A stretch of 33,456 nt of DNA. Origin: a virus. The DNA is taken from positions 1 through 33,456 of the IMG/VR virus record IMGVR_UViG_3300009082_000957; one strand, written 5' to 3'. Every line of letters begins with the position of its first letter. The first letter of the stretch is position 1. Below, piece after piece: positions 3,108 through 21,713 of the stretch. A program made the translations under genes and the position numbers. The notes below the pieces were generated by a model. That model was not told where the DNA came from and did no database searches. It was given only the letters and a program-made list of their open reading frames with translations.

Positions 3108-4481
3108 ATGGAAGAAAAGAATCTAGTTACTTGCCCTAGCCTTGGAGATATTACAAGTTTAACAAAAGCGGCAGAAGCTTTTTCAAAAAGTACTATAGTC
3201 CCAAAAGCCTATAGGGGTAATGCCTCTAATTGTTTTGTTGCTATTGATCTTGCGGCTAGGTTGAACTACTCACCACTTATGATAATGCAGAATATGTATA
3301 TTTTACATGGTGAGCCAAGCTGGAAAGCGCAATTTGTTATTGCGCAGCTTAATCGCTCAAGCAAATATGAATCATTACAATATAAGAAAATAAATCTTGG
3401 GATTGTTACAAAATTAAAATATATTATATATAAATATGAAAATGGAGAAAGCCGTTCTACAAAATATGAAAAAGAAGCGCCTGATTTTGAGAATATTGCA
3501 TATATAGCATATGCTAAAAATAAGCAGACAGGAGAAATTGTAGAAAGTACTCCGGTAACAATTGAAATGGCCATAAAAGAAGGTTGGTATTTTAAGGACG
3601 GGTCTAAATGGCAGACTATGCAGGATCAAATGGGTTATTATAGAGCTGCTTGTTTTTTTGCGAGGCTATATGACCCTGAAAGCCTTCAGGGAATGTATAC
3701 AGTAGAAGAAATGGAAGATATGGGGAAACATGAACGGATAAGAGATATTACACCAAAAAAAGATAATAAAAATAATAAAGATCAATCAGATAATAGTAAT
3801 ACGCAAAACTCTATGAAAAAAGATAAGAAGGATATAAAGCAAAATGAGAATATTGAGAATAATATTATTATTAATACAGAAGATGCGAATATCGCTGATA
3901 AAACAATAAATTGTTATGATATAAAAGTTGAAAACATATACTCATTTATATCTCAAATAAAAGATGCCGAAGTAAAAACAGCTATCGCAAAAAAATATAG
4001 ACAAAATTTAAGTGACACGAATATGGTGCAAAGCATTATTAAAGAAATAGAAAGCATATTACAAAATCAAAATGCTGATATTGATAACATAGCCGATGCT
4101 GGATTTAATGCTGCAATATCTTCAGAAGCGAAATCAGAAGAAAATAATTTAATCCCTCCTGAATATATGCTAAAAGACAAGAATGGGAAAGAGCACAATT
4201 TTTATGACTATATAAAAGCAGTTATTGATGATAACAAAAATCACAGTTCTGATCTACCAAAAATTTCACTTAACCTTATTTATTCAGCATTCGACAAATC
4301 AGATGAAGAGAAAGCGTATACTCTTCTAGTAATATTTAGCAGCCATTCAGCTGTAAAGGATAAAATGCTTGACGAAAAAACATCGCTCAAATCAACAATT
4401 GCTAATGCATTAGAGAGAAAAAATATAGAACAAATTAAAGCGATGATAAAAGCATGTATGCCATTAATTATTCCGAGGTAA
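3108..4481 (+). CDS. RecT-like single-strand annealing protein (probable)
   Basis: The N-terminal 205 residues follow the pattern of phage RecT/Bet-type annealing proteins. There is an opening helix (AAEAFSKSTIVPKAY), then CFVAIDLAARLNYSPLMIMQ, a hydrophobic strand with HGEPSWKAQFV, and a closing block (WQTMQDQMGYYRAACFFARL, followed by DPESLQGMYTVEEME). Residues about 210-265 are a Lys/Asn/Asp-rich linker, and a second helical domain fills 266-457, making the protein longer than a typical RecT of about 270 residues. Such proteins coat single-stranded DNA and anneal it to homologous strands. Its place at the head of an operon with an HNH protein and SbcD-SbcC supports a recombination role. 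The alternative is an unrelated DNA-binding protein. Confidence 0.65.
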   Translation: MEEKNLVTCPSLGDITSLTKAAEAFSKSTIVPKAYRGNASNCFVAIDLAARLNYSPLMIMQNMYILHGEPSWKAQFVIAQLNRSSKYESLQYKKINLGIVTKLKYIIYKYENGESRSTKYEKEAPDFENIAYIAYAKNKQTGEIVESTPVTIEMAIKEGWYFKDGSKWQTMQDQMGYYRAACFFARLYDPESLQGMYTVEEMEDMGKHERIRDITPKKDNKNNKDQSDNSNTQNSMKKDKKDIKQNENIENNIIINTEDANIADKTINCYDIKVENIYSFISQIKDAEVKTAIAKKYRQNLSDTNMVQSIIKEIESILQNQNADIDNIADAGFNAAISSEAKSEENNLIPPEYMLKDKNGKEHNFYDYIKAVIDDNKNHSSDLPKISLNLIYSAFDKSDEEKAYTLLVIFSSHSAVKDKMLDEKTSLKSTIANALERKNIEQIKAMIKACMPLIIPR

Positions 4482-4544
4482 TAATAAATAATGGTGTTAC
4501 GAATATTCTGTAAAATAGTTAATATTGTTTTCGGTGATGATAGC

Positions 4545-4988
4545 ATGACTATTAATATAAAATATGCTGGCGATAGATTTTCTTTTCTTAAGAATAGCCT
4601 AACTAGACTAATAACAGATAGAAGGAAAAAACTTATAGAAATTTCTACATATCCTTCTGATAAATGGGAAGCCGCATTTAAGTTTTGGCATAAATGTATT
4701 GATATGATTTGTAACGAGCTATCAGCCCGGAAAATAAATGTTATTTATGATACAATTCCATTAACGAAGTTAAATTTTAAAGAATATTTGAAAGCAGAAT
4801 TTGGGCGTCATAAAATATTATATAAAAAAGATGGAAAGGTGATAATCCAAAATGCTTCATCAACTACATATACCTTTGATGAACTTATGGATATTATCAA
4901 TAATACTCTTCAGTATGCAAGAGATAACCAGCTTGATATAGATAAATTTATAGATGAATATAAGGAGATAAAATATGATAAGTCTTAA
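4545..4988 (+). CDS. Unknown protein in recombination operon
   Basis: A 147-residue protein is read from the ATG at 4545 (MTINIKYAGDRFSFLKNSL), which has GGTGAT six bases upstream. An earlier in-frame ATG at 4491 would add an unlikely hydrophobic leader and was not chosen. The protein is mostly helical and basic, with a conserved-looking core (SDKWEAAFKFWHKCIDMICN) and a C-terminal helix. No catalytic or metal-binding motif is visible. It overlaps the HNH gene by 14 bases, so the two are probably translationally coupled. A DNA-processing accessory role is inferred from neighbours only. Confidence 0.65.
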   Translation: MTINIKYAGDRFSFLKNSLTRLITDRRKKLIEISTYPSDKWEAAFKFWHKCIDMICNELSARKINVIYDTIPLTKLNFKEYLKAEFGRHKILYKKDGKVIIQNASSTTYTFDELMDIINNTLQYARDNQLDIDKFIDEYKEIKYDKS

Positions 4989-5367
4989 TGATATACCACC
5001 CAAAAAAATACCCAATCTTGAAACAGTCGTTAATCAACTGGTAATTATTCAAGATAGATTGTGCGGTAGATGCGGACAATGGTTGGTTGATCTTCCATAT
5101 CCACATCATGGGCTTGCCCACAACAAACAGGAGAATAGGCGGAGATTCCCTTTACTAATACATAATATAGTTAATTTATTTCTACTTTGTGATAAATGCC
5201 ATTCTCAATACGGTATGTACTTGCAAATTCAAAATTTATCAATAATAGATGAAATTGAAAAAATAATAAAAGAAGAATATTATGAGATGTCAATTAAAGA
5301 ATTGTCTTTATTTAAATGCAAGCTACTGAATAAATATGTCGATTATATTAATTGGCAGACATATTAA
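4975..5367 (+). CDS. HNH-like zinc protein, putative recombination endonuclease
   Basis: This 130-residue protein carries an HNH-type layout. C30-x-x-C33 is followed by Pro-His-His (44-45), H49, then NLFLLCDKCH with C72, C75 and H76. In this fold the two Cys pairs bind zinc while the His cluster forms the beta-beta-alpha metal site that cuts DNA. An Asn (N67) lies before the second Cys pair as in HNH proteins. The start at 4975 is preceded by AAGGAG. Position between an annealing protein and SbcD-SbcC suggests a junction- or end-processing role like that of phage recombination nucleases (NinG-type by analogy). Activity is not proven. Confidence 0.65.
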   Translation: MISLNDIPPKKIPNLETVVNQLVIIQDRLCGRCGQWLVDLPYPHHGLAHNKQENRRRFPLLIHNIVNLFLLCDKCHSQYGMYLQIQNLSIIDEIEKIIKEEYYEMSIKELSLFKCKLLNKYVDYINWQTY

Positions 5368-5778: not shown

Positions 5779-6276
5779 ATGACAAAAGATGAACAGAAAT
5801 TATTTAACGATATGCATAAATTTTTATCAGACATGAAAAGAGAAAATGAAATATTTAAAAATTTACTTTCTGAGAAAGTACTTCAAATTGATGAAAAAGT
5901 AAATGCAAAATATATACCTATCAATTTAGAAAATGATATCTTGCATAGTGTGCAAGATGGAATTAATAAGATTCTGCATGATATATTAAGTAGTTATAAT
6001 TCTCCACTTTCTAAACTTGTTTCAAAAGTAATAGAAAAACATAAAGAAACAATTGAAGAGGCGTTTGACGCAGTTGTTTCTGAAGAAATAAATAATAATA
6101 ATTTTTCAGATAGTATTAAACAAGAGTTTATTAAAAAGATTGCTAAGTCTGTTTTATCTGGCATTGATGGAACAATTGATAAAACTGTTAATGCTATGAA
6201 GCAAGATTCTATATTCAGGGCGAAGTTAACATTGATGATAAATATTTTAATAGATGAATGGAAAGGCGGTAAATAA
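5779..6276 (+). CDS. Unknown helical protein preceding SbcD-SbcC
   Basis: This 165-residue protein is predicted almost wholly helical from its residue pattern and has an AGAAGGAG ribosome site. Its stop codon shares a base with the start of the SbcD-SbcC gene (TAATG), so translation is coupled. There are no Cys clusters, nucleotide-binding loops or membrane segments. A helper or regulatory role for the nuclease-ATPase is inferred from coupling only. Confidence 0.7.
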   Translation: MTKDEQKLFNDMHKFLSDMKRENEIFKNLLSEKVLQIDEKVNAKYIPINLENDILHSVQDGINKILHDILSSYNSPLSKLVSKVIEKHKETIEEAFDAVVSEEINNNNFSDSIKQEFIKKIAKSVLSGIDGTIDKTVNAMKQDSIFRAKLTLMINILIDEWKGGK

Positions 6277-9200
6277 TGAAACAAATTAAACTTTTATCTT
6301 TTGCAGATTTGCATAATTGCAAAGATTACGCAGATAAGTGCTCAAAAATTCTTGACTTTGTAGGAGAAAAAGCATTACAAATTAAGCCGGATTTTATTAC
6401 AATATCAGGCGATATAAATAATAATGCCATTTTAAATTCTGATAGCCACCGGTTACCCGAGTTTAAGACTAAACTTGATTTTTTATCTGGTATAGCAAAA
6501 ATTATTATGATATATGGCACACCTTCCCATGATGCTGCTGGAAGCCTGGAAATATTCAGGAATGATAAAACAATATTTATTGTGCGTCCAGAGAAGCCTC
6601 TAATAATTGACGGCTGTATATTTTATTGTATTCCTGATTATCGCGTATGTGATAGCGATAAGAAATCTCATAAAGAAGCCGGGCAAGATATGAATCAATA
6701 TCTTTTTGACTTATGTAAAATGTATGGTGACCATAGGAAAGTAAATGTAGATTTGCCGGCCGTTATACTTGGGCATGGTAATGTAAGAAGCACAGCAACA
6801 GAAAACCATGAAGCGATAAAAAGAGCGTCCATATATTTGACAGAACAAATACTTGCAGAGACACAAGCAAATGCTATCTTGTTTGGGCATATTCATCAAC
6901 GAATAAATTTTGCAACAATACCCGGTTGCTATCTTGGCGGGATGGCTCATAACTGGAAAGACTTGAATTATAAACCTGCTATTCAGGAGGTAATAATTAA
7001 TAAAACAGGGGAGGCAGAATTTAAATCACATGAAATACCGTTTATTCCCAGGCGTATAGAAATTAGTAGTTTCATTATTAATACTGTCCCTACTAATGAA
7101 TTTAATGGTGATATGGTATGCCTCAAAAAAAAGAAAAATGAACCAGGGACAAAGGCTGATTTAATTGAAGCCGGGGCTCATTCAGACAGTAAGGTTGTTA
7201 TAATACCAGAAGTTAAAAACATTATTCGTAAAAAAGATATGGATAAACTGGAAGGCTATAAAGAGCTATATAAAGCCTATCAAATAGATGCTACAGAAGA
7301 GGAGCTTGCCATATGCGATGAAATTGAAAAGATAGAAATAAAAGAAGGACGGCTATCTGTAAAGAAAATTATTAAGCCTCTTTCTACACATATAAAGGGC
7401 CTTAAACAATTATTTAACGGAATTGGCAAAGAAGAAATATATATAGATTGGTCAAAACATAATGGCATATTAGGATTGCTTGCACCAGGCGGGATGGGTA
7501 AATCAGCGATTGTAGGATGTATCCCTCCTCATTCTGCTTGTATAACCCAGGGCAATTCGCTTGCTTCAATGTTCGCAGATGGTGGATTTATTATTCAGAA
7601 TTGGCAGGTAAATAATCAAGTCATAACGACAGAAAGGCTCTTTAAGATCAATAATAAAAAATCAGAAACATCTTACAAGGTGTCTATAGATGGAGTAAAG
7701 CTTGATGTTGCATCTGGCTCTATTTCATCATATGATAATTATATTAACTTTGCTTTTGGGAGTCCTCGGGTGTGCGCTTTAACTGTTCTGCGTTCACAAT
7801 TCCCCAATTTCTCTACCTGGAATAAAGTAGCAATTAACCCGGATATTTTTACTATGCCTAATGCAGAGTTTAAAACAATTGTTGCGGAGTTAACAAATTG
7901 CTCAAAAGAATTTGCCTATTTATATTGCAAAAACAATCTTGATCAAAAAACAGTCGAACTAAAATCAATTGAAACAACAATAAACGGGATTAAGGATAAT
8001 ATCGGGAACAAGAAAGAGATAGAAGAAACTATCATTAAATTAAAAGAGCTGCTCAAGGAATTAGAGAATGATTTATTAATAAACAATAGTATCCTATTAC
8101 AAAAGAAAAGCGAAATTGATATTTTAAATACGGAGTTTCTTGAATCAGAAAAAGCACGATCTGCAATGATTTTGTATGATAGTCAGCTTGAAACAAACAA
8201 TATAAAACTTTCTGAACTTAAAGCATTAATAAATCGCAGACCAATTATAACGGAAGAGCAAATAAAAGGTAATATCTTTAAGATAGAAAATCAAAAAGCT
8301 AAGCAAGAAGAAGCTGAAAAAAGAAATAACGAGTTACAAAAAAAGCACACGGAGGTATTGATTAGTTACAATACAGAATTATCTGCATTTAATAAATTGA
8401 AAAAAGAGCACGAAGAGAAGGAAAGAGTAATAATCAATTTAATGAATGAAAGGAATTCTGAACTTAAAAACCAATATACCCAAAGGCTTATTACTTATAA
8501 CAATGAATATAAAGAATATAGAAAAAAACAATATGAATTTGATATACAAAAGGCAAATATTGATAAAGAATTAAATCAGATAGTACAGCATAAAGAATCT
8601 TTGTTAAAAGAAATAAAGGACGCTGAAAGCAAAATAGAATTTTACAATAAACCATGTGAATATTGTGGGAAAATCGCATCCTCATCAAAGACGCATATAG
8701 AAACTTTAAATAATAGCATTGTCCTCTCTATGGGCGAGATTGATAAGGCAGATGAGAAAATTTATTTTAAAACTAATAAATTACAATTTTTTGTATTTGA
8801 TAAGGCAGAACCTAAAGAGCCCATTGAGCCAACATATGAAAAACAATCTGACCTTAAAGAATTACAAGATTTGTCTTTCAATGCAATTGAGCCTACTATG
8901 CCCATAGAACCTGAGTATGAACAGATAGATAAAACAATTCAAATTACACTTGATATAGAAAATAAAAAATTATCTGATTATCAATTAACCATAGAAAAGA
9001 TAAAAAATGCTGAATTAGAATATTCTAAAATTGCAGCAGAAAATGAAGAAATAAATATCAAACATTTTGCAGAATCTTGTAAGGTTAAAATAAACTTGTC
9101 TTCATCGCTCCATGAGAAGAAAAAGGAAATCCTTAATACAGAGACACGTGGCGAAGAGATAGCAGGTAAAATTAGTAATGAAAAAGCTAATATAAAATCA

Positions 9201-9785
9201 TGTTCTGATAAAATAACAGATATTGACGAAGCAAACGCAAAATTATTAAAACTTGAAGGTAATCTTGAAGCAAGCAAGAAAGAATATCTTAAATGGGACA
9301 GGCTGTCTGCCGCATGGCACAGGGATGGTATTCCTGCAATGATCCTTGAGAATATAGCACCTACTATAGATCAAGGTATAAATGATCTTCTGCAAGTATA
9401 TTATCCGAAACTTATGATACAAACAGAGACAATAAGTAAATATGCAAACAAAAAAGAGTTTTATGAAAATTATCACATAGATATAATAAATAATGATACC
9501 GGGAACATACAGCCGTTTAATTCATTATCAGGGGAAGAAAGAGATTTTATCGCGGCAGCATTTAGAGAGATATGCAGAAATATATATGAAGGGAATTCTA
9601 ATATTATTTATCAGCTTGGGATAGATGATGAGCCAGATGCTCATGTATCTGAAGAAAGGCTTCAAGATTTCTGGAATATGAAAAGACAGCTTGATGAAGG
9701 GAAAGAGCGATTAAGAATCTGTATAAGTCATTCGCCTTTGGTCAAGACAATCTTTGATAATAGTATAGACCTAATGTCTATATAG
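6276..9785 (+). CDS. Single-chain SbcD-SbcC (Mre11-Rad50-like) nuclease-ATPase
   Basis: The 1169-residue protein joins both halves of the Mre11-Rad50 complex. Residues 1-260 are a calcineurin-like phosphoesterase: D11-L-H13, G45-D46, GTPSHD (81-86), GHG (H167) and GHIH (H205, H207), the metal ligands of SbcD. Residues from about 375 are Rad50/SbcC-like: a P-loop (APGGMGKS, K409), long charged coiled coil from about 555 to 1010, a zinc hook C794-E-Y-C797, signature SLSGEER (about 1083), an acidic Walker B (D1117-D-E1119) and a terminal ISHSP loop (H1152). The family resects and trims DNA ends. Related phage systems such as T4 gp46/gp47 use two chains; here one frame carries all motifs. Confidence 0.9.
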   Translation: MKQIKLLSFADLHNCKDYADKCSKILDFVGEKALQIKPDFITISGDINNNAILNSDSHRLPEFKTKLDFLSGIAKIIMIYGTPSHDAAGSLEIFRNDKTIFIVRPEKPLIIDGCIFYCIPDYRVCDSDKKSHKEAGQDMNQYLFDLCKMYGDHRKVNVDLPAVILGHGNVRSTATENHEAIKRASIYLTEQILAETQANAILFGHIHQRINFATIPGCYLGGMAHNWKDLNYKPAIQEVIINKTGEAEFKSHEIPFIPRRIEISSFIINTVPTNEFNGDMVCLKKKKNEPGTKADLIEAGAHSDSKVVIIPEVKNIIRKKDMDKLEGYKELYKAYQIDATEEELAICDEIEKIEIKEGRLSVKKIIKPLSTHIKGLKQLFNGIGKEEIYIDWSKHNGILGLLAPGGMGKSAIVGCIPPHSACITQGNSLASMFADGGFIIQNWQVNNQVITTERLFKINNKKSETSYKVSIDGVKLDVASGSISSYDNYINFAFGSPRVCALTVLRSQFPNFSTWNKVAINPDIFTMPNAEFKTIVAELTNCSKEFAYLYCKNNLDQKTVELKSIETTINGIKDNIGNKKEIEETIIKLKELLKELENDLLINNSILLQKKSEIDILNTEFLESEKARSAMILYDSQLETNNIKLSELKALINRRPIITEEQIKGNIFKIENQKAKQEEAEKRNNELQKKHTEVLISYNTELSAFNKLKKEHEEKERVIINLMNERNSELKNQYTQRLITYNNEYKEYRKKQYEFDIQKANIDKELNQIVQHKESLLKEIKDAESKIEFYNKPCEYCGKIASSSKTHIETLNNSIVLSMGEIDKADEKIYFKTNKLQFFVFDKAEPKEPIEPTYEKQSDLKELQDLSFNAIEPTMPIEPEYEQIDKTIQITLDIENKKLSDYQLTIEKIKNAELEYSKIAAENEEINIKHFAESCKVKINLSSSLHEKKKEILNTETRGEEIAGKISNEKANIKSCSDKITDIDEANAKLLKLEGNLEASKKEYLKWDRLSAAWHRDGIPAMILENIAPTIDQGINDLLQVYYPKLMIQTETISKYANKKEFYENYHIDIINNDTGNIQPFNSLSGEERDFIAAAFREICRNIYEGNSNIIYQLGIDDEPDAHVSEERLQDFWNMKRQLDEGKERLRICISHSPLVKTIFDNSIDLMSI

Positions 9786-9800
9786 AAGCCTCCAAAACCA

Positions 9801-9826
9801 GCCCAGGCATAAGCCTGGGCACTTTT
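9801..9826 (+). terminator. Intrinsic terminator after the recombination operon
   Basis: A perfect 8-base stem (GCCCAGGC / GCCTGGGC) closes a four-base ATAA loop and is followed by ACTTTT. It lies 15 bases after the SbcD-SbcC stop. The opposite strand also has TGGTTTT after the stem, so weak two-way activity is possible. Confidence 0.8.
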
Positions 9827-9842
9827 AAATGGGAATGATAAA

Positions 9843-10040
9843 ATGATAGGGTATAGTATATTATTATCTGTTAATAAAGATAGAATTAATATTATAAGCA
9901 ATGATGAAAAGGTAATTATGGATGCAATGGTTGGTGCTGAAACTCTTTATAGTTGTGAGGGGATAACAATATTGGGAAAATACCCAAAGAATGGCGAAGC
10001 TATTGAAAAACAAATTATTATTATAAAGGATTCCGAATAA
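9843..10040 (+). CDS. Small unknown protein
   Basis: This 65-residue, mostly beta-strand protein (MIGYSILLSVNKDRINIISN) starts 17 bases after the terminator, with a modest GGGA ribosome site. The stop shares a base with the start of the VRR-NUC gene (TAATG), which supports it being real and coupled to that gene. No motif is recognised. Confidence 0.55.
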   Translation: MIGYSILLSVNKDRINIISNDEKVIMDAMVGAETLYSCEGITILGKYPKNGEAIEKQIIIIKDSE

Positions 10041-10393
10041 TGGGAAAACCTGAAAACAGCTTAACTTCAAAAATTATAGAGTACATAACAAGAAATAGGT
10101 TTGAATGGCATTGGCGTAATCAGGTTTTACATGGAACATTTAAAGGCTATTGGATTAATCAAGGCAAGGCAGGCATTGGTGATTATATTGTTATATTCCC
10201 TGACGGGAAAACATGTTATATTGAAATTAAAGTACCAGGGAAGAAACGTTCTAAAGAGCAAATTGAATTTGCAGATTTCTGCATTATGCACAATGTTCCT
10301 TATGTCTATGCCCATACTGTTATGGATGTATCTCTTTATTTTAAAGAATATTTCAGTAATACCAAATGGGCAGAGAGGCTGTTTTATTTATGA
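10040..10393 (+). CDS. VRR-NUC domain nuclease
   Basis: This 117-residue protein fits the PD-(D/E)xK fold of VRR-NUC nucleases. An N-terminal helix (SKIIEYITRNRF) is followed by GIGDYIVI with D48, then YIEIK with E62 and K64, and Q74 in the helix after KKRSKEQIEF. These are the metal-binding and catalytic positions of the family. Stand-alone VRR-NUC proteins are common in phages and act as structure-specific nucleases or in genome processing. It is coupled to both neighbours by overlaps of one and four bases. Family assignment is firm; the substrate is not known. Confidence 0.85.
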   Translation: MGKPENSLTSKIIEYITRNRFEWHWRNQVLHGTFKGYWINQGKAGIGDYIVIFPDGKTCYIEIKVPGKKRSKEQIEFADFCIMHNVPYVYAHTVMDVSLYFKEYFSNTKWAERLFYL

Positions 10394-13351: not shown

Positions 13352-14086
13352 ATGCCTATTATTACAAATGAAGAAATAAATAAAATACCTGGTAGTAATT
13401 TTCAATTTTCGGCAGTTAAGCCAGAAAATTTAGGAGCTACTGAATATACTCTTGTTACGGTAGTTATTGATGTTACTGGAAGCGTATATATGTTTTCTAA
13501 AGCTTTATTAACTATGTTACAAGAAGTTATCAAGGCTTGTCAAAAAAATCCACGATCTGAAAATCTTATGGTTAGGGTTGCTACGTTTAACAATCGCATA
13601 CATGAAGAGCATGGCTTTAGATTACTATCTGATATTAATCCGGCAGACTATACAGAATTTAACTGTGACGGAAATACAGCTTTGTATGATGCAACTTATT
13701 CATCTATTGCAGCTACACTTGCCTATGCGGATACTTTAATGAAAAATGATTTTAATGTTAATGGTTGTATTTATATTATTACAGACGGAGAGGATAATGA
13801 ATCAAACACTACAAGAAAAATGATCGCTGATGAAATCTTAAAATCCAAAAAAGGCGAATTAATTGAATCTCTTATTACTGTTCTAATCGGAATAAATACT
13901 GCTGGCTGCAAAAATTATCTTGATAATTTTAAAGACGAAGCTGGACTAACGCAATTCATAGATATGGGCGAGGTTACACCTGGTAAACTTGCAAAGCTTG
14001 CAGGATTCGTATCTAAATCCATAAGTAGCCAAAGCCAGTCTGTTGGTACTGGATCGGCAGCAGCGGCTACGCCTTTAATTTTTTAA
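13352..14086 (+). CDS. vWA domain protein, TerY-like
   Basis: This 244-residue protein carries a full metal-ion-dependent adhesion site. VVIDVTGSV gives D40, T42 and S44, DGNTALYDA gives T109, and ITDGEDNES gives D145. The flanking strands fit a complete vWA fold. TerY-type vWA proteins act inside the cell with a PP2C phosphatase and a protein kinase in so-called TerY-P triads, for example E. coli yegL-pphC-yegI, and the next two genes here are exactly those types. The C-terminus (from residue 222) is Ser/Ala/Gly-rich and flexible. AAGGAGG precedes the start, 10 bases after the nicotinamidase. The family is secure; what it binds is unknown. Confidence 0.85.
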   Translation: MPIITNEEINKIPGSNFQFSAVKPENLGATEYTLVTVVIDVTGSVYMFSKALLTMLQEVIKACQKNPRSENLMVRVATFNNRIHEEHGFRLLSDINPADYTEFNCDGNTALYDATYSSIAATLAYADTLMKNDFNVNGCIYIITDGEDNESNTTRKMIADEILKSKKGELIESLITVLIGINTAGCKNYLDNFKDEAGLTQFIDMGEVTPGKLAKLAGFVSKSISSQSQSVGTGSAAAATPLIF

Positions 14087-14100
14087 AATAGGAGAGGAAC

Positions 14101-14898
14101 ATGCTATTAGATAATGTTATAACGATTGGAAAATCACATAATATATGTGAAGATTATTCTTTAATCGGAGATAAGGATAATCCGTTCTTATGCGTATCAG
14201 ATGGCTGTTCCTCTTCTAAAAATACAGATATGGGCGCCCGGTTATTATGCTGGGCGTTTAAGGATTTTTTAACTTCATGGCATGATGAAATAAAAATATT
14301 TAATAATAAAAGCGTCGGCAGATATATCATTTCTCAAGCCCAAAAAATAGCCAAAGAAATAAATCTTAATTTTAACGCATTAGATTCTACTCTTATCACT
14401 ACAAGAATATTTAATAATGATATTATGATTGATTTTTTTGGCGATGGATATCTAATAGTAAAATATAAAGCTGGCGCCGTTTATTTATTTAAAATAAGCT
14501 ATACAGAAAACGCTCCGTTTTATTTAAATGTATTCAATGATCCAGTGATAACCAAAAAATGGCAGACGTTATATCCTGATAATATATTACAAATTGAAAT
14601 ATTCGATATTTGTGATAATGATATGAAAATACAAACCCCGTCATCTCTGGATTATTATTCTTTTAATTGGGATTGCGAATCAATAGATTCTGTTTTTATA
14701 GCTACAGACGGATTGGGCTCTTTTATAAATAATACCGGCGCCTCTCTTGGCATTAAAGAAATTGTAAAAGATTTACTTGATATTAAAATCCGCAACGGGG
14801 AATATTTAAAACGAAGAATGAAAAAGATGCTATTTAAATATCAAGCATTAGGTTACACTAACTATGATGATATTGCAGTTGCATCTATAATATTTTAG
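14101..14898 (+). CDS. PP2C-type protein phosphatase
   Basis: The 265-residue protein has the key acidic positions of metal-dependent PPM/PP2C phosphatases. CEDYS gives E17 and D18, VSDGCSS gives D34 and G35, FFGDGYL lies near 120, ATDGLGS gives D203, and YDDIAVASI at the C-terminus gives D256/D257. These bind the two metal ions that activate water for removal of phosphate from Ser/Thr. It begins 15 bases after the vWA gene behind AGGAGAGG and is followed 9 bases later by the kinase. The phosphatase-kinase pair suggests a reversible phosphorylation switch. Compact atypical PP2Cs of this kind belong to TerY-P triads. Confidence 0.85.
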   Translation: MLLDNVITIGKSHNICEDYSLIGDKDNPFLCVSDGCSSSKNTDMGARLLCWAFKDFLTSWHDEIKIFNNKSVGRYIISQAQKIAKEINLNFNALDSTLITTRIFNNDIMIDFFGDGYLIVKYKAGAVYLFKISYTENAPFYLNVFNDPVITKKWQTLYPDNILQIEIFDICDNDMKIQTPSSLDYYSFNWDCESIDSVFIATDGLGSFINNTGASLGIKEIVKDLLDIKIRNGEYLKRRMKKMLFKYQALGYTNYDDIAVASIIF

Positions 14899-14906
14899 GA
14901 ATTAAA

Positions 14907-16580
14907 ATGAGTATAAATATTGTAGTAGATGGAAAAGAAATTAAACTTGATAAACAAGATTATATTCAGGAAGGCGGCGAGGGAATTATTTATGCTAAAG
15001 GCGGGATAGTCTATAAAATATACCATAATTTGCAAGATGTTTTGCCAGTTAAAAAATATAATGAATTGTCGGTATTAAATAAAGATAATATCTTAATACC
15101 TCGAAAATTTATACAGGATAAAAAAAATAATCCCATAGGGTTTACCATGCGGCAAGTATCAAATACCGTTCCACTTGCAAGAGTATTTACAACAGGCTAT
15201 AGAGACAGAAATAATATCACTCCTGACAAATCAATTTCATTAGTTCAAAATATGGCAGAAACAATCCAGTACATTCATGAAAAAAATATTTTAATTATCG
15301 ACGGGAATGAATTTAATTATTTAATTGATGGCAAAGATTTTATAATTCCATATTTTATAGATGTTAATTCTTATCAAACCCCATCATTTAAGGCAACTGT
15401 TATTATGCCATCGATTAGAGATTGGCTAAATAGTTCATTTACAAAAGAAAGCGACTGGTTTTCTTTTGCAATTATAGCCACCCAAATATTTATTGGTATT
15501 CATCCATTTAAAGGATCACATAAAGACTTTGATCGAACGGATTTAAAAGGAAGAATGACAAAATACAAATCAATATTTAATAAAGAAGTTAATTTGCCGC
15601 CCATCACAAGGGATTTCGGGTTGATACCAACAGAATACAGAGACTGGTTTATATCATTATTTGAGAAAGGCAAAAGAAGTCCGGCGCCAACAATTAAAAC
15701 CAAACTAATTCAAAAAGCGCAAACAATAATCGTGACAGGAAAGGATAAATTTAGTATAGATAATATTTTTAGCACTACTGATATAATTACTGGGTGTGAT
15801 TTTATTTTAGGAAATAAAATTATTTATACAAGCAAAAATATTTACTTGAATAAAAATAAATATTTGTTACCATCAAGCACTGCTGGAATAATTTATTGTG
15901 ATAATATCCCGTATTTGATTGACATAGAAAATGGAAAGTTAAAAGTTGATAGCTTGCAGTCTAATAAAATTATCGATTGTAATATTTTAGCTGAAAAAAA
16001 ACTTATTATTAATAATAGATTATATATTATAGCGGGCGGCAAGTTTTCTGAAATCAATATTAAAACTTTTAATAATAAATTATTTATAAGTTTCAAAACC
16101 GCATGGGATATTCTGGCCAATTCTATAAATATCCTCAGAAATATAATTTCTTCTGATATTTTAGGCACCTGTTATTTATATATTCCTTATCAGGAAAATT
16201 ATTGCAGCATAATACCTATCCCTGAATTGAATAAACACAAAATAATAGATGCAAAATATGAAAACAGGGTATGTGTTTTGATAACTTTTTTTGATTCGGT
16301 TTATAATAGAGTAACTATAAAATTTAACGAGTCTATGAATGCTTATAGTTTACAAAGGGAAAATGATATAATTTTAACAAGTGTTAATTTTATATGCTTG
16401 CCTAATGGGGTATATCTAATTTATACCGGCGAAGGTGATTTAATAATAGGCAACAAAAAAATAGATCAAATCAAAATATTAACTAATATAAAAATTGATA
16501 ATATTATGAATTTATGTCATAATGGAAATGACGTATATTACTATAATAATAATAATTTGTTCGCACTAAAGATGAAATAA
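14907..16580 (+). CDS. Ser/Thr protein kinase-like protein with beta-rich C-terminal domain
   Basis: This 557-residue protein opens with a kinase fold. The glycine loop is GGEGIIY (G23-G26) and the ATP lysine K37 lies in VYKIY. The catalytic loop has D132 and N137 (NILIIDGNEFNYL), with HRD altered to IID. A metal Asp D152 lies in FIDVNSY, replacing DFG. SDWFSFAIIATQIF forms the F-helix Asp segment. The catalytic Asp and Asn are kept, so it may be active despite altered surrounding motifs. Residues about 280-557 are a run of short strands separated by turns, resembling a beta-propeller sensor. It is the third member of the vWA-PP2C-kinase set. Confidence 0.8.
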   Translation: MSINIVVDGKEIKLDKQDYIQEGGEGIIYAKGGIVYKIYHNLQDVLPVKKYNELSVLNKDNILIPRKFIQDKKNNPIGFTMRQVSNTVPLARVFTTGYRDRNNITPDKSISLVQNMAETIQYIHEKNILIIDGNEFNYLIDGKDFIIPYFIDVNSYQTPSFKATVIMPSIRDWLNSSFTKESDWFSFAIIATQIFIGIHPFKGSHKDFDRTDLKGRMTKYKSIFNKEVNLPPITRDFGLIPTEYRDWFISLFEKGKRSPAPTIKTKLIQKAQTIIVTGKDKFSIDNIFSTTDIITGCDFILGNKIIYTSKNIYLNKNKYLLPSSTAGIIYCDNIPYLIDIENGKLKVDSLQSNKIIDCNILAEKKLIINNRLYIIAGGKFSEINIKTFNNKLFISFKTAWDILANSINILRNIISSDILGTCYLYIPYQENYCSIIPIPELNKHKIIDAKYENRVCVLITFFDSVYNRVTIKFNESMNAYSLQRENDIILTSVNFICLPNGVYLIYTGEGDLIIGNKKIDQIKILTNIKIDNIMNLCHNGNDVYYYNNNNLFALKMK

Positions 16581-20084: not shown

Positions 20085-21713
20085 ATGAATAAATTAACAG
20101 ATTATATAGAAAATGATACTTTTTATCCTACGCCTAACAATATTGTTCGTAGATTATTATCAGGAATAGAAATGGATACCATTGAGGATGTCCTAGAGCC
20201 TTCGGCAGGCAGTGGCGATATTGCAATGCACTTTATACCTAAGGATCAATATGATAATATCAGAAAAAATATTAGAATCGATTGTATAGAAATTAATTCT
20301 GATTTGCGAAATGTTTTAAGGGGTAAAGGGCTAAGAGTTATCTATGATGATTTTTTAACTTTCTATACTGCTAAGCGCTATGATTTAATTGTGATGAATC
20401 CACCCTTCAATAAAGGTGTTGATCACTTGCTTCATGCTATTGAATTATGTGTGCATGGTGGTAAAATTAGGTGTATTTTGAATGCTGCTACTATAGATCG
20501 TTGTTTTGATATTGAAAGTACCGGGAAATTAAAAATATTATCAAATACGCTTAAAGAATTAAACGCTAATATTGAATATGTAGATAATGCGTTTAAAGCG
20601 GCTGATAAAAAAACCAATGTACGGATTGCAATCATTTTTATTAATATCCCGGATGATCAAGATGAAATTAAAAGCGAATTGTTTGAACGTTTGCAAAAAG
20701 ATGATAGTTATAATGTAGTTGATAATATTAGCAATGAGAATACCCAGGTAACTTATAGTGATTTTGTTAAAGCTATTGTAAGTCATTATAGGTTTGAAAT
20801 TGAATTAGGTGCAAGCCTGATAAAAGAATTTTTTGCAACTGCTGGTAAAATAAATAAAGAATTCAAGCCGGACAAATATGATGATGCAAAAAGTTTGTTT
20901 ACTTTAAAGATTGGTTATGATGAAGTAGGGGGCGTGAAGTTAGCTATTAATGCACTTGTTAAAGCTATAAGATCAAAATACTGGGCCGCCCTTTTTAATT
21001 CAGAATCATTTGATAAAATTATGACAACCACTATTCGTGATAAGTTTATAGACAGAATAAAAGATTTATGTAATTATGATTTTAATGTTTTCAATATTGA
21101 AGAAATTCAATCAGAAATTAAACGTGATTACTCAAAGACAATAGAAAAAACTATATTGAATTTATTTGATATGTTATCAAGAAAACATAATTGGGATGAT
21201 AAGGATTCGCCTAATGTGCATTATTACAATGGATGGAAAACAAATAAGGCATGGAAAATAAATCATAAATGCATTATCCCTATGATAGGCATGGATACTT
21301 ATAGAAGATGGGAATGTGTAAGGGAGTTATCGGATATTGAAAAAACATTTAATTATTTATCCGGTCAAAGCAACAAGGATTGTACACTTTCTGAAATACT
21401 GGATAATGCAAAGAAAAATTGTCAAACAAAAAAAATACAATGTAAATATTTTAAATTAACATTTTATCTAAAAGGTACTTGCCATATAGAATTTACCGAT
21501 ATGGGATTACTTGATAAATTTAATATTTTTGGAAGTCAACGGGAAAATTGGTTGCCTCCTGGGTTTGGTAAAAAATCGTATAATATGATGAACCATGAAG
21601 AAAAATCTGTTGTTGATAATTTCTGTGGAGAAAATAAATATAAGGAATTTATGAATAAGCAGGATTATTATATTGTTAATGATGTTCAGTTGTTAACTGA
21701 TAATAATTATTAA
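20085..21713 (+). CDS. DNA methyltransferase with DUF4942 domain
   Basis: The 542-residue protein has an N-terminal N6-adenine-type methyltransferase. FYPTPNNIVRRLL is followed by AdoMet motif I (LEPSAGSGDIA, residues 37-47) and catalytic NPPF at 105-108. From about residue 235 the sequence follows DUF4942, a domain found fused or adjacent to phage methyltransferases. It includes HYYNGWKTNKAWKIN, a CKYFKLTFYLKGTCHIEF stretch and NIFGSQRENWLPPGFGKK. Gamma-class order (motif I before NPPF) differs from the enzyme at 10620, so the phage has two unrelated methyltransferases. It likely modifies phage DNA; target site unknown. Confidence 0.88.
   Translation: MNKLTDYIENDTFYPTPNNIVRRLLSGIEMDTIEDVLEPSAGSGDIAMHFIPKDQYDNIRKNIRIDCIEINSDLRNVLRGKGLRVIYDDFLTFYTAKRYDLIVMNPPFNKGVDHLLHAIELCVHGGKIRCILNAATIDRCFDIESTGKLKILSNTLKELNANIEYVDNAFKAADKKTNVRIAIIFINIPDDQDEIKSELFERLQKDDSYNVVDNISNENTQVTYSDFVKAIVSHYRFEIELGASLIKEFFATAGKINKEFKPDKYDDAKSLFTLKIGYDEVGGVKLAINALVKAIRSKYWAALFNSESFDKIMTTTIRDKFIDRIKDLCNYDFNVFNIEEIQSEIKRDYSKTIEKTILNLFDMLSRKHNWDDKDSPNVHYYNGWKTNKAWKINHKCIIPMIGMDTYRRWECVRELSDIEKTFNYLSGQSNKDCTLSEILDNAKKNCQTKKIQCKYFKLTFYLKGTCHIEFTDMGLLDKFNIFGSQRENWLPPGFGKKSYNMMNHEEKSVVDNFCGENKYKEFMNKQDYYIVNDVQLLTDNNY

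Follow-up and report, generated by a model that had tools for sequence, protein, structure and literature searches.

Background

Single polypeptides that join an Mre11 (SbcD) nuclease to a Rad50 (SbcC) ATPase were described by Yoshida, Claverie and Ogata in 2011 (PMC3175470) where thirteen such fusions are reported, including Mimivirus R555 and fusions of Bacillus phage 0305phi8-36, C. kluyveri plasmids, a Deferribacter megaplasmid and eukaryotes; the fused forms are there not one clade, and mobile elements are argued to have spread them. The subject of this study is a gene of the same kind, here called sbcDC, at positions 6276-9785 of the IMG/VR virus record IMGVR_UViG_3300009082_000957, a linear and probably fragmentary record of 33,456 bases (the window). 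Its product is a new, divergent member of the kind described in 2011, and the notable part is the annealase-type neighbour found repeatedly beside it and its relatives.

The 2011 fusions share with the window protein the order nuclease then ATPase in one chain, the occurrence in mobile elements and a sporadic distribution, and most of them keep the capping and helix-loop-helix region between the halves. The Deferribacter fusion (L014), the only one of them compared by sequence, is distant in sequence, has the GNHD motif and groups apart in the tree described below; it gave a weak match to our ATPase profile (1e-3 to 2e-4) and none to our nuclease profile. Four phages matched by the Deferribacter fusion (L015-L018) were considered as fusions and found to be two-gene.

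The SbcCD (Mre11-Rad50) complexes of E. coli, S. aureus and Thermotoga have the same N-half fold and domain order but are encoded by two genes instead of one, and the window protein carries GTPSHD and LSGEE variants of two motifs. In tblastn the window protein was matched best by an SbcCD-like pair on Burkholderiales plasmids (pHG1, pBMC401 and others), with 5e-10 for the C-half and 8e-5 for the N-half; this pair has a similar GTxSHE motif but consists of two genes with a third small open reading frame (ORF) between them. In the RecET and lambda Red modules of phages the genes for nuclease and annealase likewise lie close together, but there the nuclease is RecE or lambda Exo and here SbcDC, with a pairing read from gene order alone. 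Among the papers listed in literature searches no other description of such fusions besides PMC3175470 was recognised, subscription journals being mostly outside coverage, and within the same coverage the present phage group, the GTxxHD motif in fusions and a link to phrog_13782 were not found.

SbcD and SbcC in one reading frame

The original prediction of both halves in one unbroken frame was borne out, and the gene is laid out as follows.

6276-9785, + strand: single-chain SbcD-SbcC, 1169 amino acids from ATG without internal stop, on motif, profile and fold evidence
6276-7040, + strand: SbcD/Mre11 nuclease core, codons 1-255; metal-site residues kept in the 11 complete fusions described below, Foldseek matches to Mre11/SbcD
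6516-6533, + strand: GTPSHD in place of GNHD, codons 81-86, the Asn ligand changed to Ser84
7041-7349, + strand: stretch first taken as a spacer, read as SbcD capping (beta-alpha-beta) plus helix-loop-helix Rad50-binding region, codons 256-358
7356-7955, + strand: SbcC/Rad50 ATPase lobe I, codons 361-560 (end approximate), with P-loop APGGMGKS at 7482-7505
8655-8666, + strand: zinc hook CEYC, codons 794-797, flanked by two coiled-coil arms
9228-9782, + strand: SbcC ATPase lobe II (start approximate), with signature LSGEE at 9525-9539, Walker B D1118-E1119 at 9627-9632, and H1152

The domain order is nuclease core, capping and Rad50-binding region, ATPase lobe I, a long zinc-hook stretch and ATPase lobe II. 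All residues named in advance (D11, H13, D46, H85, H167, H205, H207, K409, C794, C797 and H1152) stand at the positions given for them. The claim that all SbcD metal-binding motifs are present holds for DLH, GD, H167 and GHIH but is inexact for GNHD, which reads GTPSHD (G81-D86) and lacks the Asn ligand. The corresponding claim for SbcC holds for the P-loop, zinc hook, Walker B and H1152, but the signature reads LSGEE where LSGGE is the standard, and the P-loop begins with Ala403.

Taken from the raw sequence of the fusion the family evidence appears weak but consistent; phrog_77 (SbcC-like) matches the whole protein with an E-value of 5.7e-8, the Pfam Metallophos match reaches 18.5 bits (below the 21.5 cut-off), and the protein went unmatched in PADLOC. 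The profile and fold evidence for its identity is strong, and the reading of the product of 6276-9785 as a genuine single-chain SbcD-SbcC, well-formed and divergent, is supported.

Relatives and origin of the fusion

A protein of this kind had been described (PMC3175470); this particular sequence had no counterpart when 50,697 phage records were searched by tblastn with a cut-off of E 1e-3. Single-sequence searches of viral and genome contigs gave no matches, a two-row ATPase alignment gave no match among the viral contigs, and alignments of 5-6 distant rows gave no usable pattern. With two- and three-row alignments relatives were found beyond the reach of a single sequence. The 28 loci returned comprise 14 in which one frame carries both halves (repeat contigs included), four that run off their contig (L031, L032, L036 and L037, the last two from one draft genome and perhaps, or perhaps not, one gene) and ten with separate genes (L024, L025 and L038-L045). 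After removal of repeats 11 complete fusions are left, the window included. The search for further single-chain proteins thus yielded ten more complete frames, seven from viral contigs (L020, L021, L026, which is 87% identical to L021, L027, L028, L029 and L047) and three from Spirochaete draft genomes (L033 and L034 from Treponema, L035 from Spirochaetales), with a junction region of near constant length. L033 lies in the Treponema draft genome G001. When the fusion profile was run at E 1e-60 against 296 genomes from the same phylum as G001, one of the 296 was matched, G001 itself; the fusion gene is rare in this phylum. The genomes G001 and G003 gave, in addition, matches to SbcD-like and SbcC-like proteins that are separate.

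The ATPase tree divides the fused proteins into two supported parts, one of which groups at 100/100 with the unfused proteins of the plasmids and of L024. A single fusion origin, with all fused rows together, was rejected for the ATPase half (approximately unbiased (AU) test, p 8e-13; 27 rows, without L014 and L002), so that the fusion arose at least twice or one old fusion split again. The resolution of the nuclease-half tree is low, and this tree is compatible with a single change. PMC3175470 agrees with the ATPase tree on the fused forms.

The nuclease half and the region between the halves

An N-half profile of the 11 fusions matched six free-standing SbcD/metallophosphoesterase proteins with E 7e-48 (hhalign). 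When an AlphaFold2 model of residues 1-575 (11-row alignment; mean predicted local distance difference test score, pLDDT, 70.2) was compared with the PDB by Foldseek, all of the 50 matches listed were Mre11/SbcD, the best with E 7.4e-16. The equivalent of GNHD reads GT[PD]xHD in the 11 fusions, where x is Asn in five, Ser in three, Thr in two and Tyr in one (L047), and GTxSH[DE] is also found in the Burkholderiales plasmid proteins and in one Fusobacterium phage protein. The metal-site residues other than this Asn are kept in all 11 fusions.

A special spacer of about 110 residues had been proposed to join the halves. When residues ~250-362 were compared with the C-termini of free-standing SbcD proteins the hhalign score was 79.2, against 6.6-10.7 for 20 column shuffles, and the model places strands at 280-285 and 306-309 and helices at 293-298, 328-335 and 341-356 in this stretch, with the first ATPase strand at residue 366. 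The beta-alpha-beta part (280-309) has pLDDT values of ~75-87 and the helices 328-335 and 341-356 are of low confidence (~50-58). An Mre11 capping domain followed by a Rad50-binding helix-loop-helix is the arrangement given in PMC3175470, and the predicted elements are those of this arrangement. Since the proposed spacer is homologous to the ordinary SbcD C-terminus, the true connector is only about 10 residues and the special spacer was given up. Tyr219 and the P-loop Lys are separated by a nearly constant distance, 190-213 residues in every one of the 11 complete fusions, and the coil arms, from ~97 to 256, vary about 2.5-fold; the L047 version has 920 residues and arms about half as long.

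The ATPase half

On its motifs (GGMGKS, SGEE with Gly changed to Glu, DDE and H1152) and profiles (the last 228 residues match phrog_77 with E 2.6e-11) the C-half appears to be an SbcC/Rad50 ATPase. The hook CEYC sits in a long intervening stretch with a putative coiled coil. Its first Cys is found in 11 of 11 fusions, as part of CxxC in six and of C-x7-C in five. The window protein and L047 have SGEE as their signature, the other nine SGGE or SGGQ.

Gene neighbourhood

Around sbcDC the following features were located.

3108-4481, + strand: RecT-like annealase (single-strand annealing protein, SSAP); Pfam RecT 7.8e-11, phrog_561 5.7e-54
5779-6276, + strand: small ORF, function not known, no PHROG match
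9801-9820, + strand: terminator-like hairpin, 15 bases past the sbcDC stop
10040-10393, + strand: VRR-NUC/Holliday-junction-resolvase-like nuclease; phrog_93 3.4e-9, Pfam VRR_NUC 20.6 bits (below cut-off)

The recT gene lies 1.8 kb upstream of sbcDC on the same strand and in the same gene run. The ATG of sbcDC is preceded by AAAGG and overlaps by one base the stop of the small upstream ORF (TAATG). Between 2600 and 12600 there are 10 terminator-like hairpins, against a shuffle mean of 4.0. The order RecT, SbcDC, VRR-NUC, methyltransferase is common to the window and L047, where the SbcDC and VRR-NUC proteins are 44% and 41% identical to those of the window and the RecT belongs to a different PHROG family (20% identity over 151 residues). 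A single-sequence search with the window RecT gave no match among viral contigs. Upstream of all 11 complete fusions either RecT (two, the window and L047) or a phrog_13782-like gene (nine) was found, and in most of them this annealase-type gene directly abuts SbcDC or is one gene away.

Small genes are seen between the annealase-type gene and SbcDC in several loci. In L047, the closest relative, there is a P-loop ATPase-like gene (5818-6327), none being seen there in the window; in L020 a gene with a weak HNH match (4542-5108; Pfam 0.00099, below cut-off); and in L033 a gene without match (984-1616). The window ORF at 4975-5367 has, by eye, a similar Cys/His pattern, and no Pfam or PHROG match. 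Just before SbcDC, L047 has an ORF of Gly-Asn-Tyr repeats (6667-6945).

The phrog_13782-like neighbour

Five of the phrog_13782-like genes are located as follows.

L020, 3577-4587: phrog_13782-like gene
L021, 4407-5486: phrog_13782-like gene
L027, 5756-6724: phrog_13782-like gene
L028, 4988-5974: phrog_13782-like gene
L029, 5939-6898: phrog_13782-like gene

All seven upstream proteins tested against PHROGs match phrog_13782 (4.5e-4 to 1.1e-78), and those of L026 and L035 were matched by our own phrog_13782 profile (4e-137 and 1e-24). Among the ten unfused loci one has such a gene (L038, 3e-10), and the two-gene Leptospira phage LE1 has a distantly related upstream protein (hhalign 36.0 against shuffles of at most 17.8). 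To the RecT pair the phrog_13782-like proteins show no profile similarity (11.0, shuffles reaching 18.0); with the upstream protein of the plasmids and L024 the similarity is slight (21.3 against at most 18.2). Cys-rich motifs occur in the proteins of L021, L027, L028 and L029.

An AlphaFold2 model of the L028 protein (12 rows) has a mean pLDDT of 68.7, with residues 1-222 mostly above 70. In Foldseek RAD52 took ranks 1 to 18 and rank 26 among the 50 matches listed, the best RAD52 with E 0.012 and none of the matches at E 0.001 or better. In VIA-align, where Z below 8 may mean only a common arrangement, RAD52 fills the first six rows with Z 6.5-7.5, followed by an unrelated LptE-type lipoprotein (Z 6.0), and the best RAD52 (Z 7.5) superimposes with a root mean square deviation of 3.0 when 72 residues are aligned and of 6.2 when 130 are. 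Yeast Mgm101, a RAD52 relative, has Z 5.2. RAD52 is the fold most like the model, but the likeness is weak. That phrog_13782 would be a RAD52-like annealase is, from fold and gene position, a fair prediction.

Proposed function and alternatives

The protein probably works as a one-chain SbcCD (Mre11-Rad50) that provides a phage annealase with single-stranded ends. By analogy with SbcCD biochemistry two chains would dimerise through their ATPase heads, with the nuclease at the base of the coils beneath the heads as in the two-protein complex; ATP hydrolysis would open the head and control access to DNA ends, and broken or hairpin-capped ends would be cut. The resected strand would then, judging by gene order, be passed to the phage annealase, RecT here, and SbcDC would play in phage recombination the part that otherwise falls to RecE or lambda Exo. 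Because nuclease and ATPase are one chain, a fixed stoichiometry and a tethering of the two are predicted to follow from the fusion, and PMC3175470 argues in a similar way.

More tentatively, and with slightly less than even confidence, we propose a further exonuclease-annealase module in phages of Spirochaetes and other hosts, in which a single-chain SbcDC is combined with an interchangeable annealase, drawn from two or more RecT types and from phrog_13782 as an undescribed RAD52-like family, and in which fusion of the nuclease took place more than once. Published support for the pairing is slight; PMC8093625 mentions SMC-type genes near recT/red-beta and, in several streptococcal phages, an sbcC gene next to sak4.

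Several observations weigh against the proposed function. The Asn of GNHD is Ser84 in the window protein and Tyr in L047, the second Gly of the signature is Glu in both, and such motif changes could mean that the nuclease or the ATPase is altered or weak. It is accordingly conceivable, though unlikely, that the fusion is real with a degenerate or altered nuclease, the protein serving chiefly as an ATP-driven tether for DNA ends or as a regulator. The other metal-site residues are, however, intact in every complete fusion, and the shared GTxSH[DE] of the plasmid and Fusobacterium phage proteins, together with Asn in the same register (GT[PD]NHD) in five of the 11 fusions, make the variant look like a subfamily form and not decay.

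The recT gene of the window is, moreover, not adjacent to sbcDC, four small ORFs lying in the 1.8 kb between them, and most small ORFs of the window are without family. Somewhat more unlikely still is an SbcDC that is a replication or repair protein like T4 gp46/47, feeding a RecA-type or host pathway and near RecT only through an early-gene cluster. The SbcCD pairs of jumbo phages are essential or near-universal, RecT partners being unmentioned in passages of PMC5105663 and PMC7824862, but a RecT or phrog_13782-like gene upstream of 11 of 11 fusions, mostly abutting or one gene away, speaks for the annealase. No PHROG match to a RecE, lambda-Exo or YqaJ-type nuclease was obtained among 26 proteins, the fusion included and most of them of unknown function, taken from the part of the window before 22650, the minus-strand tail-side genes lying beyond this part; another exonuclease may lie outside the 33 kb fragment.

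That a sequencing or assembly error joined separate sbcD and sbcC genes is very improbable, even though the two genes abut in many phages and in four of these (picked from matches spanning the junction) share a frame that only one stop interrupts, since a separate sbcC would have no usable start near the junction in any frame (from codon 322 to the P-loop only TTG401, eight codons before K409, and in the other two frames between 7100 and 7490 every start runs at most 19 codons) and independent relatives, among them the 44% identical L047, are fused likewise.

Other genes of the window

Three adjacent genes at 13352-16580 encode a protein that is von Willebrand-A-like by eye (phrog_7371 5.6e-10, function unknown), a phosphatase of PP2C type with a Pfam match of 6.4e-11 and a kinase-like protein whose Pfam match (1e-5) is below cut-off, a set which presumably resembles the TerY-phosphatase-kinase triad. 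A gene on the minus strand (1884-2768) contains 19 copies of a 15-base tandem repeat (2182-2470) giving an Asn-Ser-Gly-rich run. The DUF4942 methyltransferase at 20085-21713 shares ~42% identity with proteins encoded by Fusobacterium phage phiFN37 and Bacillus phage SPR; in the same phage collection it was matched and SbcDC was unmatched.

Implications

If the pairing of SbcDC with annealases is true, the fusion would be a compact ATP-controlled nuclease that acts together with annealases of the RecT type. This would help to explain how single-stranded ends are formed in RecT phages without RecE, and the pair might be tried in recombineering. The modest size and fixed 1:1 ratio of the chain suit structural work. 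For phrog_13782, whose function is listed as unknown, the neighbourhood of the fusions suggests a function.

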